A stretch of DNA of 36,877 bases. It comes from Actinomycetota bacterium (GTDB taxonomy: Bacteria; Actinomycetota; Actinomycetes; Streptosporangiales; Streptosporangiaceae). Numbering within the stretch: the first letter of the stretch is position 1; each line of letters opens with the position of its first letter. The position numbers and the translations under genes were made by a program. Below the pieces are notes generated by a model. It ran no database searches. It had not been told where the DNA came from and saw only the letters and a program-made list of their open reading frames with translations. Positions 25,607 through 31,880 of this stretch are shown one piece after another. The stretch is from the NCBI GenBank assembly GCA_027306495.1, contig DAHUZQ010000163.1:1-36877 (forward strand), read 5' to 3'.

Positions 25607-26125
25607 GTGGTGAGCCGGCCGCACCCCGGCTGGGTGTGCCGGGCGAGGGAACTGTCGACCACGGCGGACCGGCGCTGGCTGGAGTTCACCATCGGCCTGT
25701 CCCGCCGGTGCCCACCCTCCCGGACCGCCTTCTCCGTCGGCGCGGTCGTCGTCGCCGATGACGGAGTGGCGCTGGCGACCGGCTATTCACGCGAAACAAG
25801 CCCGCATGACCACGCTGAAGAGGCGGCCCTCGGCAAGCTCCCCGCGTGTGACCCGCGGCTGGCGGCGGCTACTGTCTACAGTTCGCTGGAGCCGTGCCGG
25901 TCGCGTGCATCGCGCCCCACGCCGTGCGCACAACTGATCCTGGACGCCGGGATACGCCGGGTGGTGATCGCCTGGCTCGAACCGCCGGTGTTCGCTCCCG
26001 GGGGCGGGGCCGCACTGCTGCGGGAGGCGGGCATCAGCGTGATCGAGGTGCCGGACCTCGCGGCGCAGGCGCGTGCCGTGAACGCTGACGTGCTGAGCGG
26101 CACTGACGGGCCGTCAGCGGGCTAG
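25607..26125 (+). CDS. Riboflavin/dCMP-type zinc deaminase domain protein
   Basis: Cytidine-deaminase-fold protein of 172 residues. Zinc site: HAEEAAL supplies the histidine and catalytic glutamate; the two cysteines are in PCRSRASRPTPC. This PCxxxxxxxxC spacing is the RibD deaminase type. Start GTG 25607 is the most upstream and lies five bases after the reductase stop; GTG 25634 is also possible, since family similarity begins near STTADRRWLEF. With the preceding reductase it makes up a RibD-like pair on two polypeptides. Its 3' end overlaps the convergent CbiX-like gene by 12 bases. Confidence 0.87.
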   Translation: MVSRPHPGWVCRARELSTTADRRWLEFTIGLSRRCPPSRTAFSVGAVVVADDGVALATGYSRETSPHDHAEEAALGKLPACDPRLAAATVYSSLEPCRSRASRPTPCAQLILDAGIRRVVIAWLEPPVFAPGGGAALLREAGISVIEVPDLAAQARAVNADVLSGTDGPSAG

Positions 26126-26968
26126 CTCCGCCAGCCTTGGATCCTCCAGCGCCGCCCCGTAGCGCATGGCCACCAGGCGCCCAATCGTGGGGTGTCCGCC
26201 CAGCGGCGCGGCGCACACGGCGCCGACCTCAGCAGCGACCGCTTCCAGCGCCTGCGCCGGGAACTCCGGGCCGATGATGCACGGGGCGAGTGCCACCCGC
26301 CGGACCCGCGCCGCCCGCAACCGGTCGGCGGCCTCGGCCACGCTCGCCGGGTCATCGAGGCATGCCTGGGCGACGGGCAGCGCCAGCCGGGAAGCCAGCA
26401 GGACCGCGGCCACCCCGGCGGCCTGCACCGCCTCCGCTCCGCCCGAGGCGGCGACGATGAAGCCGTCCGCCTCGCTGACGATGCTGAGCCTGCCAACCCG
26501 CGCGCTGCGGGCCAGGCCGGCTTCGGCCAGGCGAACATGAAGTGCCTCGGCGAGCATGGGGTGGGGGCCCAGATGGCTCGCGATGAGCGCCTCCACCGGA
26601 GCCACCGATGCGACCTTGGCCAGTTCCGCGTCCACCTGCGGGTGAGGCGCGGTCAGCAGTGGGACCACCACGGCCCAGGCCATGCCTGGCTGCCTGGCCA
26701 GGTCCTCCAGGACCTCGGTCAGTGGCTGCGACGTTCCCGCCAGGTAACCCGCGTGGACGCCGATGCCGGGGCAGGAGGCCGCGGCACTGTCCGCGATGGC
26801 CTCCACGACCGCGGCACTCGCCGCGCTGGCTTCCCCGGGAACGGCCATGACCAGGGCAGGCGCCTCCGGCGGCAGCGACAGCTGATGCGGGCTGGAGTGG
26901 CGTCCGGTGCGCTGATAGCGGGACCTGCGGACCGGCAGCACCGGGGGGGACTCGTCGACAGCACCCAT
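26114..26968 (-). CDS. CbiX/SirB-like sirohydrochlorin chelatase-family protein, active site degenerate
   Basis: Protein of 284 residues with two CbiX-like halves. Intact members insert Co2+ or Fe2+ into sirohydrochlorin using a histidine in a GHGS motif at the start of the fold and a second histidine about 65 residues later. Here the first motif is replaced by AVPGEAS (residues 42-48), while H109 in VVPLLTAPHPQVD and the HLGPHPMLAEAL stretch remain. The second half has VAASGGAEA in place of a GHGS-like motif and keeps PLGGHPTIGRLVAMRY. The first 30 residues are basic and unstructured. So the fold is conserved but chelation is doubtful; a scaffold or regulatory role is possible. The start has TAGGAT eight bases before it and a 33-base palindrome just upstream. 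Confidence 0.8.
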   Translation of the reverse strand: MGAVDESPPVLPVRRSRYQRTGRHSSPHQLSLPPEAPALVMAVPGEASAASAAVVEAIADSAAASCPGIGVHAGYLAGTSQPLTEVLEDLARQPGMAWAVVVPLLTAPHPQVDAELAKVASVAPVEALIASHLGPHPMLAEALHVRLAEAGLARSARVGRLSIVSEADGFIVAASGGAEAVQAAGVAAVLLASRLALPVAQACLDDPASVAEAADRLRAARVRRVALAPCIIGPEFPAQALEAVAAEVGAVCAAPLGGHPTIGRLVAMRYGAALEDPRLAELAR

Positions 26969-26976
26969 AGGAGGGC

Positions 26977-26982
26977 ATCCTA
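26977..26982 (-). promoter_or_regulatory. -10 box of the CbiX-like gene
   Basis: On the minus strand TAGGAT, then eight bases, then ATG; no Shine-Dalgarno. The expected -35 position (about 27000-27006) falls inside the palindrome at 26992-27024. Confidence 0.5.
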
Positions 26983-26991
26983 ACCAGGCGC

Positions 26992-27024
26992 GCAGTCATA
27001 TGCAGGAACAACGCATATGACTGC
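26992..27024. promoter_or_regulatory. Perfect 12-bp inverted repeat, probable operator
   Basis: GCAGTCATATGC (26992-27003), spacer AGGAACAAC, GCATATGACTGC (27013-27024). The arms are perfect and A/T-rich against a G/C-rich background. It overlaps the -35 zone of the CbiX-like promoter, ten bases upstream of its -10, as an operator for a dimeric repressor would. As RNA it would be a strong hairpin, so a terminator for minus-strand transcripts from nucS is the alternative, but it is 300 bases from nucS and has no T-run. Confidence 0.6.
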
Positions 27025-27274: not shown

Positions 27275-27315
27275 GCCCGCCCGGCGCGAGCCCGCCCGGC
27301 GCGAGCCCGCCCGGC
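27275..27315. repeat. 15-base tandem repeat downstream of nucS
   Basis: GCCCGCCCGGCGCGA twice exactly (27275-27289, 27290-27304) plus 11 bases of a third copy, ending seven bases from the nucS stop. Confidence 0.9.
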
Positions 27316-27321
27316 TGGGGT

Positions 27322-28068
27322 TCAGAAGAGGGTCAGTTCGTCACGCGGCAGCCCGCGCATCGCGTCGTAATCGAGGACCACGCACCGGATGCCACGATCC
27401 TCGGCGAGCGTGCGTGCCTGTGGCCGGAACGACTGGGCGGCGAGCACACCATGCACCGGGGCCAGCAACGGGTCCCGGTTCAGCAGTTCCAGGTAGCGGG
27501 TCAGCTGCTCCACCGCGTCTATCCCGGCCACCCGCTTGATCTCGACCGCGACGTGGGCCGCGCGGGGGCCCGGGGTACCGGGACCCTGGGCCGGCGGGTC
27601 ATCGCCGACTGCATCGGTGCCTTCCTGGCCGACCTCCACACTGACCCCGGCGCCGTCCCGGCACATCAGGTCAACCGGGCCGATCGCGGTGGGGAATTCG
27701 CGCCTGACCAGCCGCCAGCCCTGGCCGAGCAGATGCACCTGCCCGGCCAGCAGTTCCTGGAGGTGTGCCTCGACGCCATCCTTGACCAGGCCGGGATCGA
27801 CACCGAGGTCATGGCTTGAGTCGTGGAGTATCTCCTCCAGGGTGATGCGAAGCTCCTCACCCGTTTTGCCGATGACCCGCCAGGCACCCGGGGATTCTTC
27901 GAGCCGGCACGGCGGCGACATCCAGTTCAGCGGCTTGTAGCTGCCGCCATCGCTGTGGATGAGCACCGACCCGTCGGCCTTCACGATGAGCAACCGCAGC
28001 GCGCTCGGCAGATGGGCGCTCAGCCGTCCCACGTAATCCGCGCTGCACCGGGCGATCACTAGACGCAC
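27322..28068 (-). CDS. nucS: Mismatch-specific endonuclease NucS/EndoMS
   Basis: Replaces MutS-MutL mismatch repair in most actinobacteria by making double-strand cuts at mismatches. It has 248 residues; relatives I know have about 220-230. The N-terminal DNA-binding domain starts [16 protein letters not shown] and includes [14 protein letters not shown]. The C-terminal RecB-like nuclease has D133 in [10 protein letters not shown]176 and K178 in VAVEIKR, and [14 protein letters not shown]. Between D133 and E176 an extra Gly/Pro/Asp-rich linker of about 25-28 residues is inserted. The C-terminal DELTLF resembles the beta-clamp-binding tail of this family. The start is a GTG, with TAGGGT six bases before it, so the mRNA is probably leaderless. 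Confidence 0.95.
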
Positions 28069-31056: not shown

Positions 31057-31821
31057 GTGACTGTCTTCGACCTCACCGGCCGCAAGGCTTTCATCACGGG
31101 CGCCTCGCGCGGCATCGGGCGGGAGATCGCCGTGGCCATGGCGCAGGCGGGTGCGGACGTCGCCCTCGTGGCGCGCACGGCCGAGGGCCTGGCCGCGACC
31201 GAGCACGCGGTGCTGGCCTGCGGCCGGGAGGCCTTCGTGATCCCGGCGGATGTGACCGACCAGGACGCGGTCGCGGTGGCCGCAGCCGGGGCGATCGACC
31301 GCCTCGGGCATGTGGACATCGTGGTCAACAACGCCGGCGGCTCGAACTTCATCGCCGCCGTGATGGACCTGCGGATGAGCGGCTGGGACAAACTGCTGCG
31401 GCTCAACCTGACCTCGGCCGTCTACGTGTGCCAGGCGTTCGGCCAGCACCTGATCGAGCGGGGCCAGGGCTCGGTCATCAACGTGGCGTCGGTGGCGGGC
31501 CTGATCTCCTCGCCGTTCCTGGCTCCGTACGGGGCTGCCAAGGCGGGCCTCATCTCACTGACCAAGACACTCGCGGTGGAGTGGGCGCCGCACGGCATCC
31601 GGGTGAACGCGCTGTGCCCCGGTTGGACCGCGACCGATCTCAACCGCAACTTGTGGGAGGACGAAGCCGCCAGCAAGGCGACGATCGCCAACGTGCCCAT
31701 GCGCCGCTGGGGCCGGCCGGAGGAGATGGCCGGGCCGGCTGTATTCCTGGCCAGCGACGCCGCTTCCTACATCACCGGGCAGGCGCTGGTCATCGACGGA
31801 GGCCAGACCACGGGCGGCTGA
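31057..31821 (+). CDS. Short-chain dehydrogenase/reductase (3-oxoacyl-ACP reductase-like)
   Basis: Classical SDR of 254 residues. Cofactor motif TGASRGIGREIAVAM; NNAGGSNF; catalytic serine in NVASVAGL and the YxxxK in PYGAAKAGLISL; then GIRVNALCPGWTATDLN and the C-terminal YITGQALVIDGGQTTGG. The basic residue after the glycine motif region suggests NADP(H). Start GTG 31057 has GGAAGGA six bases upstream; an in-frame ATG at 31042 overlaps the hydrolase. Its substrate is probably a 3-oxoacyl thioester or a related alcohol, by family only. It ends at a very strong bidirectional terminator. Confidence 0.9.
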   Translation: MTVFDLTGRKAFITGASRGIGREIAVAMAQAGADVALVARTAEGLAATEHAVLACGREAFVIPADVTDQDAVAVAAAGAIDRLGHVDIVVNNAGGSNFIAAVMDLRMSGWDKLLRLNLTSAVYVCQAFGQHLIERGQGSVINVASVAGLISSPFLAPYGAAKAGLISLTKTLAVEWAPHGIRVNALCPGWTATDLNRNLWEDEAASKATIANVPMRRWGRPEEMAGPAVFLASDAASYITGQALVIDGGQTTGG

Positions 31822-31827
31822 TCTGGC

Positions 31828-31880
31828 TCGGATGTGGGTGGGGGCCGGCGCGAAGCGCGCCGGCCCCCACCCACATCCGA
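31828..31880. terminator. Bidirectional terminator with a perfect 25-bp stem
   Basis: Arms 31828-31852 and 31856-31880 are exact complements, with only AAG between. It lies six bases from each of two convergent stop codons and must stop transcription from both the SDR and the Scy-like gene. No T-run on either side. Confidence 0.85.

Follow-up and report, generated by a model that had tools for sequence, protein, structure and literature searches.

Operators of dimeric regulators (TetR, GntR, ArsR, Fur-like and others) combine perfect two-fold symmetry, A/T-rich arms and a promoter-proximal position. Perfect hairpin stems can also be created in a single event by replication template switching (PMC8794818). 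In this study, we analyzed a dyad that shares the three operator features and lies upstream of a cbiX-like gene in a 36,877-nucleotide stretch of actinobacterial DNA (Streptosporangiaceae, contig DAHUZQ010000163.1), hereafter the window. A literature search on the control of cbiX in Actinobacteria returned nothing directly on point among titles and abstract openings. The dyad, if it serves anything, is most likely a lineage-specific control site, and the reading that it arose neutrally has to be weighed against this throughout.

The dyad spans positions 26992-27024 and reads GCAGTCATATGC-N9-GCATATGACTGC in plus-strand letters. Its arms, GCAGTCATATGC at 26992-27003 and GCATATGACTGC at 27013-27024, are perfect over 12 bases, and the 9-base spacer at 27004-27012 is AGGAACAAC (GTTGTTCCT on the minus strand). 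No gene model covers these positions. The G+C contents of the arms and of the whole window were 50% and 70.7%, respectively. The palindrome and its contrast in composition had been described in an earlier note on this DNA, and the letters agree with that description exactly. The window contains four further inverted repeats with arms of at least 12 bases, all of them G/C-rich; the dyad is the joint fourth longest perfect inverted repeat and has the highest A/T content among those with arms of this length. In a set of 11,880 windows simulated with a first-order Markov model at the same composition (arms of at least 12 bases and spacers of 3-20 counted), the mean number of inverted repeats was 0.26 per window, and just 0.13% of the windows had one whose arm contained 6 or more A/T. 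The dyad is beyond chance at about 1e-3 per window, a level that is not overwhelming once the choice of the most striking feature is allowed for. Elsewhere in the window, a perfect inverted repeat (31828-31880; arms of 25 bp, loop of 3 bases) lies between convergent genes ending at 31821 and 31887, and is probably a bidirectional terminator.

The cbiX-like gene (Pfam CbiX, E 2.7e-10) is located at 26114-26968 on the minus strand, with its ATG at 26968. The next gene upstream is nucS (27322-28068, minus strand; mismatch endonuclease, NCBIfam equivalog NucS), and nucS, cbiX and a riboflavin-type deaminase gene occur in the same order in the nearest relatives compared, G029 (60% protein identity) and G095 (56%). 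The gap between nucS and cbiX is 353 bp here, against about 130 bp and 200 bp in G029 and G095, respectively. By the stop-side end of nucS, at 27278-27318, this gap, which exceeds those of the nearest relatives by 150-220 bp, holds tandem GC-rich copies (gcccgcccggcgcga). The ATG is kept in these relatives together with its context ATGGG(C/T)GCTG, and the last 25 bases before it are alike across the three gaps: GGTTAGGATGCCCTCCT-ATG, GGTTACGATGCGCTGTT-ATG and CGTTAGCATGCGCTGCT-ATG. A -10-like TA[GC][GC]AT stands 8 bases ahead of the ATG at identical spacing in all three genomes, as TAGGAT (26977-26982, minus strand) here, TACGAT in G029 and TAGCAT in G095. Because the nearest syntenic orthologues keep both the ATG and this element, we consider cbiX to be probably leaderless, with its transcript starting at 26968 and its predicted -10 hexamer at 26977-26982. 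Several more distant relatives have TAGAAT or TAGCAT a few bases ahead of a GTG. Leaderless genes with TANNNT elements have reportedly been described in a related actinobacterial group (PMC3898074).

Relative to this start, the arms extend from -24 to -35 and from -45 to -56, and the dyad is centred at -40. The promoter-adjacent placement claimed earlier thus stands, since the dyad lies directly upstream of a conserved promoter-like element of a CbiX-domain gene. The statement that it covers the -35 holds for its position, but no sigma-70-type -35/-10 pair scored in the cbiX promoter region. Because the dyad is upstream of the predicted transcript, an RNA role in the cbiX mRNA is unlikely. The dyad might instead act as a hairpin in a read-through transcript of the nucS strand, for 3' end protection or termination. 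In favour of this, the gene upstream, nucS, is on that strand, and the minus-strand RNA folds with a 13-pair stem (81 nt, -36.9 kcal/mol, z -4.1), where the z-score is not independent evidence because any perfect palindrome folds well. However, the dyad is about 300 nt beyond the nucS stop, a U-tract terminator is absent on both strands, and the G+C-rich stem followed by a T run that marks an intrinsic terminator was not found at the dyad. Nor was there an Rfam match at the palindrome that would make it a known structured RNA, the single sub-threshold match falling elsewhere (26450-26480), and no such hairpin lies downstream of nucS in G029 or G095. We regard this RNA hairpin as unlikely.

The dyad is single-copy. 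At up to 3 mismatches, no second copy was found in the genome for the 24 arm bases or for a relaxed 18-base core; as the completeness of the assembly is about 91%, another site may be absent from it. Only one other exact half-site exists in the genome, within a long coding ORF, and the six half-sites with 1 mismatch are unpaired, in number close to the approximately six estimated by our own arithmetic from G+C content. Among 343 family genomes searched with 3 or fewer mismatches allowed over the 24 arm bases, only the window itself matched, and the other 342 lacked the dyad. It was also absent upstream of the orthologues examined, including the syntenic promoters of G029 and G095. From -72 to -23, the three nearest orthologues are no more alike than shuffled sequence; only TTGT(C/T)C, part of the spacer here, is found again in the G029 and G095 promoters, at a nearly equal distance. 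Homology of the left arm to these two promoters, suspected from GCAGT and TTGT, was no better than in shuffles and was dropped. A protein scan of a contig database yielded no close cbiX relatives, and the relatives used came from a genome search. Viral contigs gave no match, and a plasmid BLAST of the intergenic region gave scattered short matches only.

The search for half-sites brought out a dispersed family of 51-bp hairpins, ATGATCACGGAATCC-(centre variable, often TGTCAG...CTGACA)-GGATTCCGTGATCAT. This genome, G000, carries about 12 complete copies (contigs C9, C12, C23/C144, C33, C54, C83, C116, C133, C198, C213, C224 and C227), where those on C23 and C144 are probably one site at contig ends. 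Seven exact-arm copies were found in G029 and one in G084, whereas the 340 remaining family genomes had none, nor did the remainder of a class sample of 395 genomes. The family appears REP-like. The dyad could be taken for one copy of a dispersed (REP/MITE-like) repeat, perhaps descended from this family, since CAGTCATATGC occurs in the loop of 2 of the approximately 12 copies. However, the loop varies among copies, the outer hairpin arms (ATGATCACGGAATC) are absent at the dyad, the dyad lacks the multiple genome copies of such a repeat, and the count of 1-mismatch half-sites fits base composition. This origin is largely refuted and hardly credible.

A wider search of 84,980 species genomes for AGTCATATGC-N9-GCATATGACT returned 23 exact matches, where our own chance estimate is well under one. 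A widespread operator was considered from these matches and rejected on translation: at least 22 (loci L085-L098 and L100-L107) encode FQSYA(L/V/I)(Y/F/W)PHMT. We take this peptide to be the Q-loop found in ABC ATPases of the MalK/UgpC type. Its QSYA and HMT codons are reverse complements of each other and stand exactly 9 bases apart, and this is why the CUT1 Q-loop coding DNA shares the motif with the dyad. The minus strand of the window reads LWQSYALFLHMTA (QSYALFLHMT) in one frame, compared with QSYALFPHMT in the Q-loop. The dyad could be a relic of such an ATPase gene; spacing and reading frame are identical to those of the Q-loop, and the spacer also codes A-L-F. The likeness holds few independent letters, because an arm coding QSYA makes HMT automatic by symmetry. 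Against a relic, there is no homology past the 10 residues of the Q-loop decamer, the frame is closed just upstream, Pfam and PDB gave no match, and no ABC gene is among the plasmid DNA matches listed. The Q-loop matches are coding sequence, whereas the dyad is intergenic and has no flanking homology. We hold a relic to be very improbable and treat the likeness as coincidence. The 23rd match, in Sphingobium fluviale (L099, near 7896), is an intergenic perfect palindrome with extended arms, AGAGTCATATGCGC-ATTTA-GCGCATATGACTCT. It lies about 140 bp upstream of a unit of two genes, whose products resemble a periplasmic adaptor and an RND pump, presumably an efflux operon. The palindrome is a plausible candidate operator there, and chance or an unrelated operator would roughly account for a single such match. 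These results indicate a trap: exact matches to a candidate operator can stem from a self-complementary coding motif, and palindrome searches may return CUT1 Q-loop codons (QSYA xxx HMT) as a false operator.

What then produced an isolated palindrome in this lineage? Replication template switching (quasi-palindrome correction) could have made a neutral perfect inverted repeat in a single step, with no dedicated protein. The dyad is unique in the genome and absent in the nearest syntenic relatives, its surroundings look unconstrained apart from the short spacer TTGT, and a one-step functionless origin accounts equally well for its uniqueness, perfection and lineage restriction. On the other side, its location is exactly promoter-proximal, and no quasi-palindromic ancestor appears in a comparison set that includes no congeneric species. 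We treat this neutral origin as a serious possibility, though one that we would not expect to be right. The site of a single-target regulator is slightly favoured over it.

Because the dyad, lying upstream of a probably leaderless promoter, can act on cbiX only as DNA, the functional reading that comes most naturally is a dimeric regulator. Our tentative reading, held at somewhat less than even confidence, is that the dyad, if functional at all, would be bound by a dimeric protein that has essentially no other target, at a site centred about 40 bp ahead of the start of the probably leaderless cbiX. We infer both the binding and the sign of its effect on cbiX. A repressor could block RNA polymerase at -35, and an activator could work from a class II position on a promoter with no recognisable -35. 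The earlier note had proposed a repressor operator. Its promoter-proximal position stands, but a centre at -40 with no -35 box equally fits a class II activator, and the operator itself was not borne out: the half-site search gave one other exact half-site, within a coding ORF, the full motif is unique up to 3 mismatches, and it is absent from the 342 family genomes and from both syntenic orthologous promoters, the last being an outcome that the earlier note itself had named as one that would refute its proposal. Because the dyad is the sole copy in the genome at up to 3 mismatches, neither a regulon nor a regulator gene under its own control is visible. The flanks are nucS and riboflavin-type genes, so that no regulator gene adjoins, as had been said before. 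The lack of a second site, an adjacent regulator and conservation argues against an established regulator. That a dedicated single-target regulator encoded elsewhere controls this CbiX-type chelatase gene through a recently evolved operator of this lineage is quite improbable in our estimate. The dyad may be functionally neutral, and at best it would be a one-off, lineage-specific control site. If a regulator does bind it, the dyad would cleanly exemplify an operator that has newly arisen at a leaderless promoter, and it would reveal how a tetrapyrrole-chelatase gene is controlled.

Compared with the operators of dimeric regulators, the dyad has the two-fold symmetric site near a promoter, but it stands without an adjacent or autoregulated regulator, further genome sites or conservation upstream of orthologues, and the searches used here matched it to no specific known motif. 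It differs from template-switch hairpins in that the genomes compared, none congeneric, show no imperfect ancestor for it. It resembles them in being a perfect, isolated and lineage-restricted inverted repeat.
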